Source: a virus
Virus record (IMG/VR): IMGVR_UViG_3300025168_000347
Location: 1-32,503 of that record
Direction: 5' to 3' (one strand)
DNA: 32,503 bases
In this document: positions 3,893 to 27,597 of the stretch, piece by piece
How the letters are laid out: every line of letters begins with the position of its first letter
How positions within the stretch are numbered: position 1 is the first letter of the stretch
Translations under genes and position numbers: made by a program
Notes under the pieces: model-generated
The model's input: the letters and a program-made list of their open reading frames with translations, nothing else
The model's database searches: none
What the model was told of the DNA's origin: nothing

Positions 3893-4840
3893 GTGGCAGA
3901 AGCAACAGGACTCCAACAGGCAGAAACAGTTTTTCAGTCGATGTTGTCCGGGGAACCCGATACACAACAGCAGTTGGAAGAAGAAATAACAGAAGAAGCA
4001 GAAGTTGAGGCAGAAGAACCTGAAATTGAAGCGGAAGCTGAAGTCGAAACTGAGGAAGAAGAACCTGAAGAAGCAGAACAGGAACCTGATAAATACTACC
4101 GGGTAAAGTTAGACGGTGAGGATTATGAGGTCACCCTGGATGAAGCACTAGCAGGTTATCAACGCCAGCAAGACTACACAAAAAAAACGCAAGCAATTGC
4201 AGAAGATAAGAAACAAGCACTTGCGGAACAGGAAGCAGCTAAAAATGAAAGGTTGCAGTACCAACAACGGTTAGAGCAGATGCTCCAGCATCAGCAATCA
4301 TCTCAGCCCCAAGAACCGGACTGGGATAATTTGTATGAAGCTGATCCTCTTGAGTGGATGAAGCAAAAGGAAAATTTTCGTTCACAAAAAGAGAGAAACC
4401 TGGAGTTGCAGCAGGAACAATTTAGAATGCGACAACAACAGGAATACGAGCAGCAGGAACAGATGAAAACTCATTTGTCCCAGCAACATCAAGCACTAAT
4501 TGATGCGGTACCAGAGTGGCAAGACCAAAAGGTGATGCAACAAGAGAAAGCTCAGATCAGGGATTATGCCGTCAATACTTTAGGCTATTCTGCTGAAGAA
4601 ATTTCTCAAGTGTATGATGCTAGAGCAGTTCAAGCTCTACGGCATGGAATGATTGCAAGCGGATTAAAAAACAGAGGTAAGGTAAAACTTAAATCTGCAT
4701 CCCCAGCAATTAGAGCCTTAACACCAGGTTCGGCACCGGAGCAACCCAGGAAACAAACTTCTGTTCATAAGGCAAAAATTCGGTTAGCTAAAACAGGCAA
4801 AATGTCTGATGCGGAGGCCGTTTTCAAACAACTGTTGTAA
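3893..4840 (+). CDS. Capsid scaffolding protein
   Basis: A 315-aa, very charged protein directly before the major capsid gene, the normal place for a scaffold. A GTG start is chosen because GGGAG lies 8 nt upstream; the ATG at 3880 is in another frame. Residues 20-65 are an almost unbroken Glu-rich stretch. Next comes a small conserved-looking domain (YYRVKLDGEDYEVTLDEAL) and the motif GYQRQQDYTKKTQ, typical of phage scaffolds. Residues 95-205 are Gln/Glu/Arg coiled coil, and the C terminus is basic (KHKAKIRLAKTGK-like), suited to contacting the coat protein. Scaffolds shape the procapsid and leave before maturation. Function rests on composition, motif and position. Confidence 0.85.
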   Translation: MAEATGLQQAETVFQSMLSGEPDTQQQLEEEITEEAEVEAEEPEIEAEAEVETEEEEPEEAEQEPDKYYRVKLDGEDYEVTLDEALAGYQRQQDYTKKTQAIAEDKKQALAEQEAAKNERLQYQQRLEQMLQHQQSSQPQEPDWDNLYEADPLEWMKQKENFRSQKERNLELQQEQFRMRQQQEYEQQEQMKTHLSQQHQALIDAVPEWQDQKVMQQEKAQIRDYAVNTLGYSAEEISQVYDARAVQALRHGMIASGLKNRGKVKLKSASPAIRALTPGSAPEQPRKQTSVHKAKIRLAKTGKMSDAEAVFKQLL

Positions 4841-4860
4841 CAATTAATTAAAAGGACAAT

Positions 4861-6079
4861 ATGGCAAAAGTGACGAATGCTTTTGACACTTATACCTCTG
4901 TAGGAAACAGGGAAGATCTTTCGGATGTGATTTATAATATATCCCCGGAAGAAACTCCTTTTGTCTCAATGGCAGGTAAGAGGTCAGTAAGCAATACTCT
5001 TTTCGAGCATTCTACGGAAAGTCTCCCAGCAGTATCGACAACTGCTCAATTAGAAGGTGATACGATTGCTGCTGCTGCATCGAACAATACAGTTCGGAAC
5101 AGTAACCAGTGTCAGATCCTCTACAGAAGTGCTGCAGTAACAGGTACTGAAGCAGCAATAAATCGTGCAGGTGTAGCCGATGCAATGGCTCATCAATTAA
5201 GTATCATGTCACGTGCCTTAGTGAATCAGGGCAATTATACAGCAATGTATAATTAAAAACACTGTGAATTGCTGGAAAAGCAGGAACTGCCAATCAGCAG
5301 CCAAGCCCGAAAGGGAAGGTCCAGAGACTATCCGAAAGGAGTACACTCAAGCGAGTGGAAGCGCAGTGCATCCCATAGGGATGATGATATAGTCCAATCT
5401 TGCGAGTCGAATCGTAAGCAGCCGAAAAGCGGTCCAAGAAATAGCGAACTTGGGCGAATGAAATGTGAAACGTGATGTAGAAAAGTTGATGCTTGGCAAC
5501 TCTGTTAAAAACAGTGGTGCAGCAGGTACTGCAAGAACAACTGCAGGTATCCTGGCAAAACTTGCAACCAACATCTCAAAAGGTGGAGGTTCATCAGCCA
5601 ATCCAACTGCAGCCCAAGCTGCTGTAGGAAGCACTGCACGAACCGATGGAACTGCAAGAGCTTTTACGGAAGTTCTAATGAAAGCAGTTATGAAACTCTG
5701 TTTTGACTCCTCTGGAGATCAACCAACAGAAATCATAATGTCTGCAGCAAATAAGCAGATTGCATCAGGATTTTCAGGAAGAGCATCTGCAACTCAGGTT
5801 GTAGCACTTCCAGGGAAAGCTGATGAAGTAAACGCAAATGTATCACTTTATTCGGGTGACTTTGGCGTTTATGCAATCCAAGCTGATCGTTTCATAAGAG
5901 GCGAGAAGGATGTGTTAATCCTTAACCCAGAATTTGTAAAAATTGCTCAGTTGCGAGCTTTCGAGACCCAGGACATAGGCCGTACAGGTGATGCCCAGGG
6001 CAAATACATAATTTGGGAAGGTGGACTTCAGGTAGATAATGAACTGGCACATGGCTTAGTTGCCGATTGTGGTGGTTGA
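4861..6079 (+). CDS. Major capsid protein (SU10/DUF5309 type), split by a group I intron: join 4861-5218 and 5466-6079
   Basis: The two open frames (131 aa from 4861, then a frame open from 5465) are halves of one coat protein. The first has the N-terminal signature of this family (FDTYTSVGNREDLSDVIYNI, then SPEETPFVSMAGK). The second continues with KRDVEKLMLG and the C-terminal GKYIIWEGGLQVDNE. Joining base 5218 to 5466 gives RAL-KRDVEKLML in frame and a 323-aa protein, close to the usual family length. In memory-based alignment, ADAMAHQLSIMSRALKRDVE matches the family spacing with no gap. Unspliced mRNA would give a truncated 131-aa product ending at TAA 5254-5256. A helix of this family forms the HK97-fold shell. 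The ribosome site AAAGGAC lies just before ATG 4861. Confidence 0.9.
5219..5465 (+). ncRNA. Group I self-splicing intron in the major capsid gene (247 nt, no endonuclease ORF)
   Basis: All four core elements are readable: P-like AATTGCTGGAAA (5267-5278), Q-like AATCAGCAG (5292-5300), R-like GGTCCAGAGACTA (5318-5330) and S-like GATATAGTCC (5386-5395). Pairings found by eye: P1, exon UGCCU (5214-5218) with GGGCA (5229-5233), placing the expected U-G wobble at the splice site; P3 5260-5266 with 5362-5368; P4 5269-5274 with 5295-5300; P5 5280-5283 with 5287-5290; P6 CCC/GGG around a GAAA loop (5306-5315); P7 GACTAT 5326-5331 with ATAGTC 5389-5394; P8 5370-5374 with 5378-5382; P9 5399-5405 with 5412-5418. 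The intron ends in G (5465). A 3-bp P10 (UCA 5226-5228 with exon UGA 5466-5468) is possible. The exons join in frame. The intron is short and encodes no homing endonuclease. Confidence 0.93.
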
Positions 6080-6107
6080 TCATTAACCTAATCTAACCCT
6101 TAAACTA

Positions 6108-6140
6108 CCCCTTCTCCGGAAGGGGTACCAACCAATTTTT
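6108..6140 (+). terminator. Stable hairpin after the major capsid gene, terminator-like or mRNA-stabilising
   Basis: CCCCTTC (6108-6114) pairs perfectly with GAAGGGG (6119-6125) around the loop TCCG. The run of five T residues comes only about 10 nt after the stem (6136-6140), so this is not a classical intrinsic terminator. It may act as a partial terminator or protect the 3' end of the abundant capsid message. It sits in the only sizeable gap (6080-6163) of the head module. Confidence 0.5.
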
Positions 6141-6163
6141 CTGGAGAGAGAGAATGGATAAAC

Positions 6164-6472
6164 TTGCCAAAAGCAACAACGAATTTAGGGACAGTAGACG
6201 GAGTTGAAACTGCAGTTCATACAGAAGATGGGACTGGTAGGTTTCATGTTACTAAAAAACAGAATGTCCAGCCAACTTTAGACTACACAAAATTCCTCAG
6301 AGAACAACCTGTCAACCGAAAAGCAGAAGACAGGCACATTGCCGAAATCCCCCCAGTATTAGCAGCAAAACTTATCAGAGATGGGATCATGGGTGATTCA
6401 AAAGCAATCCTGAAATGGTTAGATCAACCAGAGAATAAATGCTTCAAGACTGTTGAAGGGAGATTGGCCTAA
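6164..6472 (+). CDS. Small head accessory protein, function unknown
   Basis: A protein of about 102 aa between the capsid and adaptor genes. The start is uncertain. The reading frame has TTG at 6164 (or ATA at 6158), while the ATG at 6154, which is better spaced from GGAGAG, is in another frame that stops after 17 codons. The middle and C terminus, with HIAEIPPVLAAKLIRDGI and ILKWLDQPENKCFKTVEGRL, follow a pattern I know from short proteins beside capsid genes in marine phages, with no firmly known role. No catalytic residues or membrane segments are visible. A slip from the ATG frame into this frame cannot be excluded but is not needed. Confidence 0.7.
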   Translation: MPKATTNLGTVDGVETAVHTEDGTGRFHVTKKQNVQPTLDYTKFLREQPVNRKAEDRHIAEIPPVLAAKLIRDGIMGDSKAILKWLDQPENKCFKTVEGRLA

Positions 6473-21494: not shown

Positions 21495-22883
21495 ATGAGC
21501 ACAAAAAGTTGGTTTCAAGATCCATTTAACACTTCCATGCCTACTAGGAAGAGAGAAAAAACAAATACCAATACAACTGATACAACATCTGGATCAGCAT
21601 TGGGTGAAGGTTATGGAGCATATGGTTTGGATCAGTATAAGGGTATGATGGACCCAACTGCATATGGTGGCAATGTTCCTGGTGCCCAGGGTCCAAATGC
21701 AGCCCAGAATCAACAGTACAATATGCTCACTGGGATGCAAACTGGTTATGGATCACCAGGGGGTTACCAGGATATGTATCAAAATCTTAGTGGAGCAAAT
21801 GCTCAACAACTTGGACCTATGAGCAGGAGTGGTGGTCCTGGTGCAGGGTACATGAATCCATACCAAGATGAAATGATTGCCGGAGTAGATGCGGATATGA
21901 AAAAGGCAATGGAAATGGCAGGTAGTATGGAGAGTGATTTGTCACAACAGTATTCATCCGGTGGTCCATCATCAGTTCGATCTACAAATCAGGGATATGG
22001 TGCAATGGGTGATGTTGGATTAAAATATGCTAATATGAAAAGAGGGATTAGATCAGACTCATTTGATAAAGGTATGGGTTACATGGGGCAAGATCAGAAT
22101 AGAAATATTGCATTGGCCCAAGCTAACAATCAAGCAAATTTAGGTTTTGGTGCTATGAATATGAATGCAGCAGGGGGAGATATGAATAACCGGATGAATA
22201 TGTCAAATGCATATGGCAACTATGGACAGAATCAGCAGAACCAGCAGAACATGGCAGATACATTTAATTATGGTGAGTTCAATCGGATGCAGGATTGGAA
22301 ACCAAATATGATGAATAACTATATGTCAGGAGTAAGAGGTACTCCCTGGCAGAATACTACTACCTCCACCTCAACAAACAATTCAAGCCAGACTGGTCAG
22401 GGTAATAAATCTAATTTTGAGAAATCACTTGGTCTAGGTCTAACTGTAAAAAGTTATATGATGTGTATTCCAGAAGGAACCAAAATAGACACTCAAGGTG
22501 GTAGTCAGATTGCAATTGAGGATATTAAAGCAGGTACGAAAGTTAAAGGGTACTATGGTGAGACTGAGGTACTTCAGGTACATCAGTATAAAGAAGATCC
22601 TAAACCTCATAGATTTTATCGTATTACATTTGATAATGGTGGAACAGTTGACTGTTGTGATATGCACAAAATCTATAATAAACGTGCAAAAGATTATAAG
22701 GTGGGGGATAGAATATCGGCTTATAAAGTTACAAGTATCACCCGGTACAACGGAGTTGAAAGATCTTATGATCTTCTGACTGCAGATGGTGGTTACCGGA
22801 TTGGTAACATTCCGGTTAATTCGATGATTGAAGAACTGGCAGAATTAACAGTAGAACTTAAACAAGCATCAGAAGCAGCATAG
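21495..22883 (+). CDS. Virion protein with C-terminal Hint (intein-like) domain
   Basis: A 462-aa protein. Residues 1-310 are Gly/Asn/Met/Gln-rich and low in complexity, with NPYQDEMIAGVDADMKKAMEMA (120-142), a motif of phage internal or tail virion proteins. Residues 324-442 form a Hint fold: CIPEGTKIDTQGGSQIAIED (block A-like, Cys324), DCCDMHKIYNKRAKDYKVGD (block B-like His391) and ERSYDLLTADGGYRIGNIP with VN at 441-442 and Ser443 (block F/G-like, Asn442 followed by Ser). Cys at the start and Asn-Ser at the end are the splicing residues of inteins. The penultimate residue is Val, not the usual His. If it splices, YMM would join SMIEELAEL. No homing endonuclease is inserted. Cleavage without splicing is also possible. 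Confidence 0.8.
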   Translation: MSTKSWFQDPFNTSMPTRKREKTNTNTTDTTSGSALGEGYGAYGLDQYKGMMDPTAYGGNVPGAQGPNAAQNQQYNMLTGMQTGYGSPGGYQDMYQNLSGANAQQLGPMSRSGGPGAGYMNPYQDEMIAGVDADMKKAMEMAGSMESDLSQQYSSGGPSSVRSTNQGYGAMGDVGLKYANMKRGIRSDSFDKGMGYMGQDQNRNIALAQANNQANLGFGAMNMNAAGGDMNNRMNMSNAYGNYGQNQQNQQNMADTFNYGEFNRMQDWKPNMMNNYMSGVRGTPWQNTTTSTSTNNSSQTGQGNKSNFEKSLGLGLTVKSYMMCIPEGTKIDTQGGSQIAIEDIKAGTKVKGYYGETEVLQVHQYKEDPKPHRFYRITFDNGGTVDCCDMHKIYNKRAKDYKVGDRISAYKVTSITRYNGVERSYDLLTADGGYRIGNIPVNSMIEELAELTVELKQASEAA

Positions 22884-22890
22884 GAGGATT

Positions 22891-23760
22891 GTGGACTATA
22901 ATTACTTTGCATCACCAAGAAATTCGGACAGAGCAAAACGATTCCGGGAGGCATATGGCAGGGCTAATATCGGGCAGAATTTTGATTTTGAAGGACAACC
23001 ATATGCTGGACCTTCTGCTCCTCCTGGGGGATGGACTAATGGAATAAATCCTTTAGAACTTGCTGCTAAGAATCAGATGCAGGAAGTTGCCCCAAGTGAT
23101 GGGGGTATGTCCCCACCACCTCCAGATATAAATTCAGATTATTATGCCCAAAACTACTTCAGGGAATTCCCAGTTGGTCTTGATGGTAACCCAGTTTATG
23201 GGGCAACCCCAGGTATGCCCTCTCCAAGTGAGGGTAAGGGTGCTATGTTTGATCTGGAGGGGAATTTAATACCTCCTAACTCTGGAGGAACAAGCCTCCC
23301 ATTCGATCACCCATCAATAGCAGGAACCAGGATACCTTTCCCGGAGCAGTCAGCAGATCAACAGGCAATGGCTTTAAGTCGAGTTGATGACCCTTCTGGT
23401 CCCAGATTTGGTGCAGCCAATCAAATGGGAGTTGCAGAAGGTTATAATCACCAAATGGTTAATGCCCCTATGGGATTTGGGATGTCTGGACCAGGTCAGG
23501 ATACCGGACAACTTCCGGGACTACTGGCTGATGATATGTCTGGTCCAAAATGGACTGATGGAATGAAATTAAGACAGAAAGCAGAAAGGGACAGGAAGAG
23601 GAAACTAGGTCTACTTGGAGATGCATCGGATACAAATCAATCAACCAATAAATCTGGTTGGGAGAAAGATAAGAAATTTTCAAATACACAAAATCTATTA
23701 ATGGAGTTGGGTATGAACATGTATAAGGATGAGAGTGACCCTTTTGGAAGTGAGTGGTAA
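22891..23760 (+). CDS. Gly/Pro-rich internal virion protein
   Basis: A 289-aa protein with GTG start preceded by TAGGAGGAT, a very good ribosome site. Composition is Gly/Pro/Asn/Met-rich and mostly disordered. The helical end, LRQKAERDRKRKLGLLGDAS, then LLMELGMNMYKDESDPFGSEW, is basic then acidic. It lies in the block of internal (ejection) proteins. I recognise no family. It probably sits inside the capsid and is ejected or lines the tail. Confidence 0.7.
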   Translation: MDYNYFASPRNSDRAKRFREAYGRANIGQNFDFEGQPYAGPSAPPGGWTNGINPLELAAKNQMQEVAPSDGGMSPPPPDINSDYYAQNYFREFPVGLDGNPVYGATPGMPSPSEGKGAMFDLEGNLIPPNSGGTSLPFDHPSIAGTRIPFPEQSADQQAMALSRVDDPSGPRFGAANQMGVAEGYNHQMVNAPMGFGMSGPGQDTGQLPGLLADDMSGPKWTDGMKLRQKAERDRKRKLGLLGDASDTNQSTNKSGWEKDKKFSNTQNLLMELGMNMYKDESDPFGSEW

Positions 23761-23761
23761 T

Positions 23762-25231
23762 ATGGGACTATTTGAAGATTATCCAGACTACGCAATGATG
23801 ACTAATGACCAGGGGGAAAGGGATACTAAACCCTGGGTCTCCTCCGGTATGTCTCCATTAAAAATGGGATTAATGTCTGCAGGGCTAGGGATATTAGCTG
23901 CTCCTGATGTTACATCTGAATGGGTAGGTGGAGGTGGTGGTGGAGAAAGTTTAGGGAGAGGTGGACTGTTAGGTCTCCAGGCATTTCAACAGGGTCACCA
24001 GGATCTACAGGGTCAGAGGAATGATTTTTATACTCACCGGAATGCCCAGGAAGATCAGTTAATCCAGAATATGCAAGCCAAGAGACAGGAGGAAGAATAC
24101 CAGAGATTGCAACAGGGAAGAGAAAAGAGGGATGAGTCATTCCCTGGTCTTCTGCAAATGTTAAGGAATTCAGGTAGACAGGAATACATGGATGCAGTCC
24201 CAATGTTGCAACAACTGTATGCAACTTCTCCAGAAAAAGCAGTTGCTGCTTCAATGAATATTGTCTCTCAGTTAAAAAAGGCACCTGGTGCAGTAGAGGT
24301 AAAGCCAATTATTGATCGAGAAGGTAACCCCACCGGACATTCTTACATTACTCAAAATGGAGAATATAAGACTACAGTAAAAACTGGGTCCGATAGTATT
24401 GGTGATCTCAAGCTCGATACAAAAACATTGAATGGAATTCTGTTTAAGGGATCTCAACCTGACAGTAAAATGACTCCAGCTAACTATCGAAAATATTACA
24501 AGATGCTACAGCAGAATGAACTTGTTAAGGGAGTTGTAAAGGATGGGGAAAAGCAGAAGTTGGGAATGTTTGCAGGACCATTGGAGTCATTTCAGTCCCC
24601 CTGGGAATTTGGCAAATCAAGAGGGTTAAGTGAAGCAGCAATGACAAAAATGGGTTGGAAGAAAGACGCATCCATTGAACAGTTTATGCAAGAAGGAGTG
24701 GGATTACCAGGAACTGAACAGTCAAAATCTGGATTTAAGTTTGGTCAGATTGCCCAAACAGAAGAAGATATATCGGCATTAATAAATGAAGGTTATGATC
24801 CAACTGAAGTGGCAAGACCTGCAGATTGGGCACAGTATATTATGGGGACTAATAGAATTAACCCATTTGGTCAGACACCAGAGCTAAGGTTAGCCAGGTC
24901 TGCAGAGAATGCCTATATGGGTGGTGCCCAGGGTTTTGCATATCTCTTTTCAGGTGCGACTGTCAGGGCAGAAGAATTAACCCAGTTCAGGTTGATCATG
25001 TATCCTGTTCCTGGAGATAGTCAATTTGATGTTAAGAGAAAAGAAGCAAGAAGGAAAAGGATAATGGACCTGTATAATTCAGTATCTCCAGACAGTATGA
25101 AACAGGCTTATAAGTTAGCAAGCCAGGCATCTATTGAAGATGGTGCAGGACCACTGAAAAGAAAATTGAAGAGGAAGAAAAAGATTACGGATATGAGTAA
25201 AGAAGAAATAGCAGAAGAGGCATTTCAATGA
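23762..25231 (+). CDS. Internal virion (ejection) protein
   Basis: A 489-aa protein. The start is set at ATG 23762, two bases after the previous stop; an in-frame upstream start lies inside the preceding gene. Residues 60-75 are Gly-rich. Residues 80-130 are a Gln/Glu/Arg coiled coil. A helical region follows (LLQMLRNSGRQEYMDAVPML), and the part near 385-430 (ELRLARSAENAYMGGAQGFAYLFSG, then ATVRAEELTQFRLIMYPVPGDSQ) is a pattern seen in ejection proteins of marine podoviruses. The C terminus is strongly basic (KRKLKRKKK), apt for DNA contact. The stop overlaps the next start (ATGA). Confidence 0.75.
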   Translation: MGLFEDYPDYAMMTNDQGERDTKPWVSSGMSPLKMGLMSAGLGILAAPDVTSEWVGGGGGGESLGRGGLLGLQAFQQGHQDLQGQRNDFYTHRNAQEDQLIQNMQAKRQEEEYQRLQQGREKRDESFPGLLQMLRNSGRQEYMDAVPMLQQLYATSPEKAVAASMNIVSQLKKAPGAVEVKPIIDREGNPTGHSYITQNGEYKTTVKTGSDSIGDLKLDTKTLNGILFKGSQPDSKMTPANYRKYYKMLQQNELVKGVVKDGEKQKLGMFAGPLESFQSPWEFGKSRGLSEAAMTKMGWKKDASIEQFMQEGVGLPGTEQSKSGFKFGQIAQTEEDISALINEGYDPTEVARPADWAQYIMGTNRINPFGQTPELRLARSAENAYMGGAQGFAYLFSGATVRAEELTQFRLIMYPVPGDSQFDVKRKEARRKRIMDLYNSVSPDSMKQAYKLASQASIEDGAGPLKRKLKRKKKITDMSKEEIAEEAFQ

Positions 25232-27597
25232 CAAACGCCAAAATCTTAAAAGCATATAATATATTAAAGGATTCCGGGAAGCATTCTGAAGAAGAAATCC
25301 TGGAGTTATTTAAAGAGAAGGGTGTGGACATCCAGGGAATGAGAGATGCAGGTACCCTGGTTCCACCTGAAGAAATGAAAGAGTTCTCACCTACAGTGGA
25401 TATCGGGATGGGGATTAAATTGGGTAAGGGAGAGTATGAGGATAAACGAAAACAGTTAGATCAGTTTGGTGAGTTCCTGGCAGGAATGTCCAGGAGTTTT
25501 GGTCAGGGTCTGACATTTGGTGGTGCAGATGAGTTGGAAGCATACCTGAGATCAAAAGTTAATGATACCAAATTTGATGATGAGGTTGCTAATGTCAGGA
25601 AGAACTTAAAAGAATTCAAGACTGCACATGAGGGTGCAGCACTGGGTTCAGAAATAGCAGGTTCTCTTGCAGTTCCATTTTACCTGGTTGGAAAACTTGC
25701 ATCCTACCTTCCATATGTAGGCAGGATAAAGGAAGGACAGTGGGCACAAAATCTCCTGAAAAGAAGTCTGATTGGTGCAGGAGTTGGTGCAACAGATTTT
25801 GCCCTTTACAGTTATGGAACAGGTGAAGGTGGTTGGGCATCTCAAGACAGAATACAGAGAGCAAAAGATGCTGCTCCAGTTGGTGCAGGTTGGGGGGTCC
25901 CATTTGGCATTGCAGGTTATGCTCTGGAATCTGGTGCAAAAGCCATTTCAAATAGGATGGCAAAAAAGGGGATGGATGTTACAGACCTGGATGGTAATAC
26001 AATTGTTGAGGGTCAACCTGGAAAAGTAGATCGTGAGGCATCCCAGACAATCAACAATGCAGTTGTTGCATCTCACCAGAGTCTAGATGACCTGTCAAAA
26101 GCACTGGATGATATAGTTGCACTTGACCCAAAAATTGCAGAGATTACCCAGTTGGCAGACCTGACAAAAGCAAACTCCCAGTTAAGATTACAACACCAGG
26201 AAATAGGACAGACTGCTCCATCAGGAACCCAGAGTGCATTTGAGGCATTGAGTGCAAAAGCTGCAGAGTTTCCAGAGATAGCAAAAACTTCAGTTAAGAA
26301 GTTCCTGGGCAAGAGAATAGATGATGTGGATCACATGGAAAAAGTCCTGGAGAAATGGTTTAAGAGAGTGGCAAAACCATTCTATGCAAAAGCAAATCCT
26401 GTAATTATAGATGACCCTGCACTCTTCACTGAGATCAACAGATATTTAAAAGAAGGAAGTAGCCCCACATCAGGAGGAGGGAAAGGAGGTTTAAAGATCA
26501 GTTATGAAGGAAAAGATTCAAGAATTGAAATACCTGGAACAGTAAAAACAAAAAAACCAGGTGCCACTTTTGTTGGTAAAAAGATTAAAGAAGCGTGGAA
26601 TGAAGCAAAAGTGAGGATACCAAAATTTGTCCGGGATACAAATTTACTGAAGGAAGGTACTGATGAACTATGGGGTACCCTGGGTGATAGGTTGAGTGGT
26701 CCACTTCCACTTACCCATCTGCATACATTGAAGGTTAAGATAGGTGATATGGCAACCGCAATGGAAACAAATCTGAAAACTGGAGCACATTACAGGGAGT
26801 CAGATTATAATGAGTTGATGGGTCTGTATGGAAAGATAAATAAGGTCCTGAAAGATGCATCTCCAGATTATAAAACAGCAACCAAGTATATAGAGAATGG
26901 AGAAACATACAAGAAAGCATTCCACCAGGGAGTCAGTGCACATAAGAAGGGTGCTGATGTTTCTGCAACTCTGATGCAGAGACAATTGAATGGTTTGTCT
27001 GATGCAGACAAGAATGCATACCGTCTTGGATATGCTTCCCAAATGTATAATAGAATTCAGAAAGCAAACGTGAACTGGCAGAATGAGGAGAAGATACTGA
27101 GACTGTTGTCTGGAGAGGAGAGAGATAAAATTAAGGTAATTGCCAGGACACCTGAAGCTGCACTGGAGTTTATGAAGAAAATGAGGTATGTGAGTGACAT
27201 GGATGCAAGAGCTAAAAAGCTAATGGGTAGTCAGACCCACCAGATGCAACAGGTTAAAGCCTCATTGGAAGCACCTCCCTCTATGCCTGGTCAGGCACTT
27301 GGTGCTCTCAGCAAACTCAGGGGTGGAGCAACTCAAACTGCTAATACAGTGGGTGATGTTCTGGATAATGATGCAGCCAAAAGGAAAGTTGCAGGTATGA
27401 GTTCTATGATGGACCCATTGGGAGAACCACATTTAAGGAAGACCTTAAACAGACTTGGGAATGAGAATAGAAGGGGTATGTCGGAGGTAGGGAACAGGTC
27501 AATGTATCCATCAGCAATACCAGGGTTGCTCTCCCCAGTTGAGAAGATGAGAGAGCAAGATCCCTATTATTCATTGTTCGGGTCCAGGACATACTAA
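25228..27597 (+). CDS. Large internal virion (ejection) protein
   Basis: A 789-aa mostly helical protein, last of the structural operon. Residues 75-110 (FGEFLAGMSRSFGQGLTFGGAD then ELEAYLRSK) and 140-165 follow a pattern of big ejection proteins of marine podoviruses. Residues 130-215 contain two hydrophobic stretches that could insert in membrane (GSLAVPFYLVGKLASYLPYV and GAGVGATDFALYSYG). The remainder is long helices with many charged residues. Such proteins leave the capsid with the DNA and build a channel through the host envelope. No peptidase or transglycosylase motif is seen. Its stop overlaps by 4 bp the end of the convergent minus-strand gene. Confidence 0.75.
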   Translation: MTNAKILKAYNILKDSGKHSEEEILELFKEKGVDIQGMRDAGTLVPPEEMKEFSPTVDIGMGIKLGKGEYEDKRKQLDQFGEFLAGMSRSFGQGLTFGGADELEAYLRSKVNDTKFDDEVANVRKNLKEFKTAHEGAALGSEIAGSLAVPFYLVGKLASYLPYVGRIKEGQWAQNLLKRSLIGAGVGATDFALYSYGTGEGGWASQDRIQRAKDAAPVGAGWGVPFGIAGYALESGAKAISNRMAKKGMDVTDLDGNTIVEGQPGKVDREASQTINNAVVASHQSLDDLSKALDDIVALDPKIAEITQLADLTKANSQLRLQHQEIGQTAPSGTQSAFEALSAKAAEFPEIAKTSVKKFLGKRIDDVDHMEKVLEKWFKRVAKPFYAKANPVIIDDPALFTEINRYLKEGSSPTSGGGKGGLKISYEGKDSRIEIPGTVKTKKPGATFVGKKIKEAWNEAKVRIPKFVRDTNLLKEGTDELWGTLGDRLSGPLPLTHLHTLKVKIGDMATAMETNLKTGAHYRESDYNELMGLYGKINKVLKDASPDYKTATKYIENGETYKKAFHQGVSAHKKGADVSATLMQRQLNGLSDADKNAYRLGYASQMYNRIQKANVNWQNEEKILRLLSGEERDKIKVIARTPEAALEFMKKMRYVSDMDARAKKLMGSQTHQMQQVKASLEAPPSMPGQALGALSKLRGGATQTANTVGDVLDNDAAKRKVAGMSSMMDPLGEPHLRKTLNRLGNENRRGMSEVGNRSMYPSAIPGLLSPVEKMREQDPYYSLFGSRTY

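Follow-up and report, generated by a model that had tools for sequence, protein, structure and literature searches.

The window, that is, the whole stretch of 32,503 nucleotides analyzed here (positions 1 to 32,503 of the IMG/VR virus record IMGVR_UViG_3300025168_000347), encodes a virion-cassette protein with a Hint module at its C-terminus (Table 1). The motifs CIPEGTKID (block A), CDMH (block B), SYDLLT (containing Asp426), and PVN-SM (containing Asn442, Ser443, and Met444) were all recovered from its open reading frame where an earlier note, made from the letters alone, had placed its block A, B, and F/G features, and the start and end that it gave for the Hint domain were correct by the same reading. 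The intron that it mentioned was also identified, as a group I intron at 5195-5418 of the plus strand with a full-length match to the Rfam model RF00028 (83.6 bits, E-value 4.3e-20).

Table 1. Features of the Hint-bearing gene and its surroundings, in window coordinates.
Feature	Position	Strand	Basis
Virion-cassette protein, 462 aa, with C-terminal Hint module	21495..22883	+	ORF reading
AGAGGA-type ribosome-binding sequence	before ORF 21495..22883	+	sequence
N-terminal part, residues 1-323, Gln/Gly/Met/Asn-rich	21495..22463	+	composition
Lys319, position -5 relative to Cys1	22449..22451	+	kept in 80/84 relatives
Hint domain, residues 324-443	22464..22823	+	AlphaFold2 models, VIA alignments, family alignment
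Cys324, block A nucleophile (Cys1)	22464..22466	+	84/84; pairs with intein residue 1 and Hedgehog residue 258
Block B motif C-D-M-H, residues 388-391	22656..22667	+	family alignment; His391 84/84
Asp426, block F Asp, position F:4	22770..22772	+	84/84; F:4 role from PMC4031507
Asn442-Ser443-Met444, altered block G	22818..22826	+	family alignment; seats from structural alignments
Asn442 codon	22818-22820	+	ORF reading; Ser443 next
C-terminal tail IEELAELTVELKQASEAA, predicted helix, lower model confidence	22827..22880	+	AlphaFold2 model, family alignment
Downstream genes 22891-23760, 23729-25231, 25228-27597	22891..27597	+	positional counterparts of larger ejection proteins

Residues 1-323 of the carrier had no PHROG or Pfam match, and they end in a Gly/hydrophobic segment resembling the natural C-terminus of a homologue without the Hint domain (L047). 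At 11 phage loci, the carrier gene was followed immediately by genes of increasing size, commonly including one that encodes about 450-730 residues and one that encodes more than 900-1000; in the window, the gene at 25228-27597 matches phrog_5880. Passages of PMC8954989 describe the gene of gp14, the outer-membrane pore protein, as being followed by those of gp15 and gp16 in T7- and P22-type phages, and the carrier was the first gene of such a series at all 11 loci. The gene order fits a gp14-gp15-gp16 ejection cassette and so makes it probable that the carrier is an ejection protein of the gp14 kind, an analogy to which its composition and a hydrophobic Gly/Ala-rich segment also contribute. 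The carriers share with T7 gp14-like proteins the position before two larger genes and the presence of hydrophobic segments, while they are bigger (390-1270 residues, compared to about 200 for gp14), and the comparison draws on gene order and composition rather than on sequence homology. The gp14 passages of PMC8954989 make no mention of a Hint domain.

Hint fold and distribution of the family

With the single sequence as query, nothing above threshold was found in Pfam, NCBIfam, PHROGs, or the PDB. The profile check proposed in the earlier note did return the Hint (Pfam, E-value 0.0023), intein_Nterm (TIGR01445, E-value 0.017), and Hint_2 models, as well as Vint, but all of these matches were below threshold. 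A profile of the family aligned with five unrelated bacterial Hint domains at an hhalign E-value of 5e-15, with Cys1 on Cys1, and a profile search of PDB sequences recovered an engineered intein at 2.4e-5. An AlphaFold2 model of the window domain, built with 34 relatives, had a mean pLDDT of 86.5 and exceeded 90 across most of the domain, and a further model, built for a member from Verrucomicrobia, reached a pLDDT of 87. A Foldseek search of the window model against the PDB ranked a bacterial intein-like (BIL) domain and many inteins at the top (E-value 1.6e-6 for the BIL domain). Structural alignment of the two models by VIA gave Z scores of 14 to 17.5 to inteins, Hedgehog Hog domains, and BIL domains, including a Z of 17.5 and 1.6 A over 116 residues for the MchDnaB-1 intein. 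Because the horseshoe beta fold, Cys1, and the block B His were all found, the module as modelled is a genuine member of the Hint superfamily, with a likeness far beyond chance. The fold models and alignments likewise bear out the earlier proposal of a small Hint domain, devoid of an endonuclease, located towards the C-terminal end of the virion-cassette protein.

A total of 84 distinct full members were found in IMG/VR, in scans covering 84,980 species of bacteria and archaea, and by genome sampling, and their hosts were uncultivated phages and Verrucomicrobiota. In the phage members, the Hint domain was always the C-terminal module of a virion-cassette protein, with upstream parts that vary widely. 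A divergent phage subfamily (L133-L136) is devoid of Lys -5 and of the otherwise near-invariant Tyr42 and Glu44, and retains Cys1, His68, Asp103, and the N-S-M motif. All 27 bacterial loci of the species scan belonged to Verrucomicrobiota, where the form observed was a predicted lipoprotein of about 190 residues, in which a lipoprotein-type signal is followed by a hydrophobic stretch of about 22 residues, the Hint domain, and a tail of 9-38 residues. A strict lipobox was present in 38 of the 45 lipoprotein sequences scanned, and the rest of those inspected ended in similar x-C motifs. The spacing from the lipobox Cys to Cys1 was mostly 22 residues and otherwise mainly 18 or 26; it appeared quantised at these three values in nearly all sequences (L024, L029, L037, and others), as if whole helical turns had been added.

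The verrucomicrobial gene usually occurred in one copy per genome. Within one verrucomicrobial order, about 39 of the 289 genomes sampled carried it, compared to a single clear carrier among 289 genomes drawn evenly from the whole phylum. The neighbors of the gene looked chromosomal at the loci inspected, and none was conserved. A prophage origin was considered for these loci and rejected, as the neighboring sequences appear bacterial-chromosomal and differ between genomes. A search for related phages in the carrier-rich order gave a single match, a phage-like contig of 9.4 kb in which the cassette gene is cut off. Phage and bacterial members formed separate clusters in the family tree, which does not decide between a single and a repeated origin of the phage members. 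One verrucomicrobial locus (L054, 1330-3210) encodes two tandem ordinary Hint domains near the N-terminus of its protein, with the ends LVHNKG and AVHNKG in the manner of type A BILs. A tblastn search of cultured phages with the Hint domain and the N-terminal parts either hit only genuine inteins located in other genes or gave no match, a literature search on Verrucomicrobia with Hint and intein turned up no more than a single mention, and the family looks undescribed.

In the family numbering, Cys324, Asp332, His391, Asp426, Thr429, and Gly433 are positions 1, 9, 68, 103, 106, and 110, and at the C-terminal end Asn442, Ser443, Met444, and Glu447 are positions 119, 120, 121, and 124. Except for Asn119, all of these were invariant among the 84 members, the lowest pairwise identity of which was 28%. 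Asn119 was present in 83, and the only exception (L100, 4909-6426) has Asp at this position (IDSMIEEM) and is thus a naturally occurring variant for probing the role of the Asn in N-S-M. The usual Thr of block B is replaced by Cys in 78 members and by Ser in five, giving C/S-x-x-H in 83 of the 84 and G-x-x-H in one; the His of block F is absent. The S-M-I-x-E motif of the tail travels with the Hint domain, and dN/dS ranged from 0.04 to 0.31 among the pairs tested.

An N-S acyl shift would need Cys1, the block B His, and the block F Asp (roles from PMC4031507), and the invariance of Cys324, His391, and Asp426 in sequences as little as 28% identical suggests an active chemistry. It appears unlikely that the Hint domain is non-catalytic and merely caps the ejection protein in a structural or binding role, for example by holding it closed or by docking it at the envelope. 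Such a cap would account for the invariance of residues that have no known catalytic role (Asp332, Thr429, Gly433, Met444, and Glu447), but a structural role would not require a Cys at the first position, and it is precisely the acyl shift residues, Cys1 included, that are invariant.

Register of block G and homologues without the module

The earlier note had taken Asn442 as the terminal Asn, Ser443 as the +1 residue, and Val as the residue preceding the terminal Asn. When the window model was aligned structurally, the final pair matched its residue 140 (Ser443) to the terminal intein residue of Mtu RecA (440), Prp8 (170), and PI-SceI (454), and the same offset was observed for MchDnaB-1 (6riy, Asn145) and BIL2 (6y75, Asn143). 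Ser174 of the verrucomicrobial model mapped identically, to a seat that corresponds to Hedgehog residue 400. As the penultimate His is residue 439 in RecA and 169 in Prp8 (PMC8529194), Asn442 falls in the penultimate-His seat. The register proposed earlier therefore appears to be one residue off: in both models Ser443 sits where the terminal Asn would be, and the +1 residue is Met444, compared to Ser under the former assignment. A MAFFT alignment with ordinary verrucomicrobial Hint domains also placed V-H-N-K over V-N-S-M, and hhalign, which introduced gaps around block G, was indecisive. The structural register is read from the ends of the alignment ranges and from the MAFFT alignment, and a local shift is possible. 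TIGR01443, the curated model of intein C-termini, matched nothing in the window even at an E-value of 10, and neither it nor PF14890 matched in the carrier genomes, although both searches gave matches in control genomes.

The statement that all residues needed for protein splicing are present thus does not hold in the structural register, which has neither a cyclising terminal Asn nor a +1 nucleophile, and the splicing apparatus of the modelled domain looks incomplete. A splicing mini-intein with its ends at Cys324 and Asn442, Ser443 as the +1 residue, and a penultimate Val, which would join YMM to SMIEEL, is rather improbable. In its favor, Cys1, the block B His, the block F Asp, the Asn, and the Ser are all but invariant, and inteins that have no penultimate His are known (works cited in PMC4031507). 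It is opposed by the register of the two models and the failure of TIGR01443 to match, by the location of the module at the C-termini of diverse proteins rather than inside one conserved protein, and by the conservation of the tail, which extends past the +1 position despite unrelated N-terminal partners.

Homologues that have no Hint domain provided a further comparison. L047, with an N-terminal part 58% identical to that of the window protein, stops after GGAALSGGMFKA, where the Hint domain of the latter begins, and L145 simply ends. L144 and L146, 77% identical to a Hint-bearing protein, continue from the same junction into a different module of 76 residues, which also begins with Cys and is weakly related to CFI-box-CTERM (NF041770, E-value 0.0026, below the cut-off). 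This module also closes gp25 of the cultured phage HMO-2011, so that two unrelated Cys-first C-terminal modules swap at one site (L144 3001-3630, L146, and L147, the last being HMO-2011 gp25 at 4102-6222, with CWVAREVYGE at the start of the module). The SMIEE tail was absent from L047, L144/L146, and L145, none of which is an intein-free allele that keeps both exteins. Because the tail is missing in these homologues, it is considered part of the Hint module rather than a C-extein, and splicing YMM onto SMIEEL, as proposed, would not bring back the protein of an ancestor.

Release of the 20-residue SMIEEL tail by cyclisation of Asn442 is likewise given a low probability. It would be in line with the retention of Asn442 in all members but the one with Asp, and with a tail helix that docks only loosely in the model. 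Asn442 is, however, in the penultimate-His seat, the His residues of blocks F and G that aid Asn cyclisation in inteins (PMC4031507) are both missing, and S-M-x-x-E is kept more strongly than expected of a discarded tail.

These results also bear on the class of the module. It is not classed as an intein, since block G in the structural register does not end in His-Asn with the Asn last and no intein-free allele was found among the homologues. Type A BILs do not accommodate it either, the C-terminal His-Asn being replaced by Asn-Ser in 83 of the 84 members, and it differs from a Hog domain in that the sterol recognition region is missing from the 20 residues after Asn442 (9-38 in the lipoproteins). 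The most fitting description is that of a BIL-like Hint domain of a new type.

Proposed autoprocessing and comparison with known systems

The module is probably a small, Cys-first autoprocessing domain, and the arrangement of its active site is more in keeping with self-cleavage or transfer of the protein than with splicing. Our preferred reading, held with moderate confidence, is that a C-terminal Hint autoprocessing module on a gp14-like virion protein would cleave or transfer the N-terminal part through a Cys324 thioester. Cys324 would attack the carbonyl of Met323 with the help of His391 and Asp426, and, as the structural register offers neither a +1 nucleophile nor an Asn placed for cyclisation, water or some other nucleophile, perhaps Ser443, a thiol, or an amine, would resolve the thioester. 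The virion protein of the phage, or the lipid-anchored peptide in Verrucomicrobia, would be cut off or handed on, and the part composed of Hint and SMIEEL would be set free. The product would keep a native hydrophobic C-terminus, such as the Hint-less homologue has by itself.

Cleavage or transfer is supported by the fold, the invariant Cys1, His68, and Asp103, the dN/dS values, the register of block G, the prevailing lipobox-to-Cys1 spacing of 22 residues, the example of the type B BILs, and the junction, at which the Hint-less homologues end or carry another Cys-first module. Counting against it are the replacement of the block B Thr by Cys or Ser, the missing block F His, and the near-universal Asn442, for which even the lone Asp variant could still cyclise. 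A shifted register would permit C-terminal cleavage or splicing at Asn442, which is possible but less likely. The two known settings suggest an action at the cell envelope. A prokaryotic transfer of the Hedgehog kind, where the Cys1 thioester would ligate the upstream C-terminus to an envelope nucleophile (e.g., an amine-bearing lipid or peptidoglycan) and so anchor the phage ejection pore protein or the verrucomicrobial lipopeptide, with Asn-Ser-Met as the acceptor-binding block G, is given a low probability.

To our knowledge, Hint domains that are neither intein nor Hedgehog rarely have a clear biological setting. Here, one family with an invariant active site is shared by two settings that are both linked to the envelope, namely a predicted podovirus-like ejection cassette and a predicted single-copy lipoprotein of Verrucomicrobiales. 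It allows one to ask cheaply whether phages mature or release ejection proteins by Hint chemistry, and, if active, it would be a small natural Hint domain with a new arrangement of the C-terminal active site.

Among known systems, type B BILs or Hog domains are, on the best reading of these analogies, the nearest functional kin. Hog domains transfer their N-terminal partner. The Hog domain of Hedgehog (1at0) shares with the family a C-terminal Hint domain with no splicing partner (Z 17.1-17.5) and a counterpart of Cys258, and Ser443 is located at the seat of Cys400; it differs in its sterol recognition region, in place of which about 20 residues follow here, in having Cys rather than Ser at residue 400, and in TxxH compared to C/S-x-x-H. 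The mini-inteins MchDnaB-1, Ssp DnaB, Mtu RecA, and gp41-1 share the fold and the Cys1, His, and Asp residues (Z 16-17.5), whereas the family has no in-register His-Asn or +1 nucleophile and does not split a conserved host protein. The Pfam family Hint_2 (PF13403) was matched by 28 of 34 members at an E-value of 0.1 or below, over about 40 of its 147 positions in the block A region only, and one tested member, L024, scored 30.3 bits, above the curated cut-off of 28.4. Type B BILs resemble the family in the Hint fold, in N-terminal splicing residues that are intact, and in a block G that departs from the intein form (PMC4031507), with a Z of 15.8 and 26% identity between the C. thermocellum BIL (2lwy) and the window model, and cleavage rather than splicing has been reported for them (PMC4031507, PMC7765530). 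The family is distinguished from them by its own Asn-Ser-Met block G, the S-M-I-x-E tail, the Lys at -5 in most members, the Cys or Ser in place of the block B Thr, and its location on phage virion proteins and lipoproteins.
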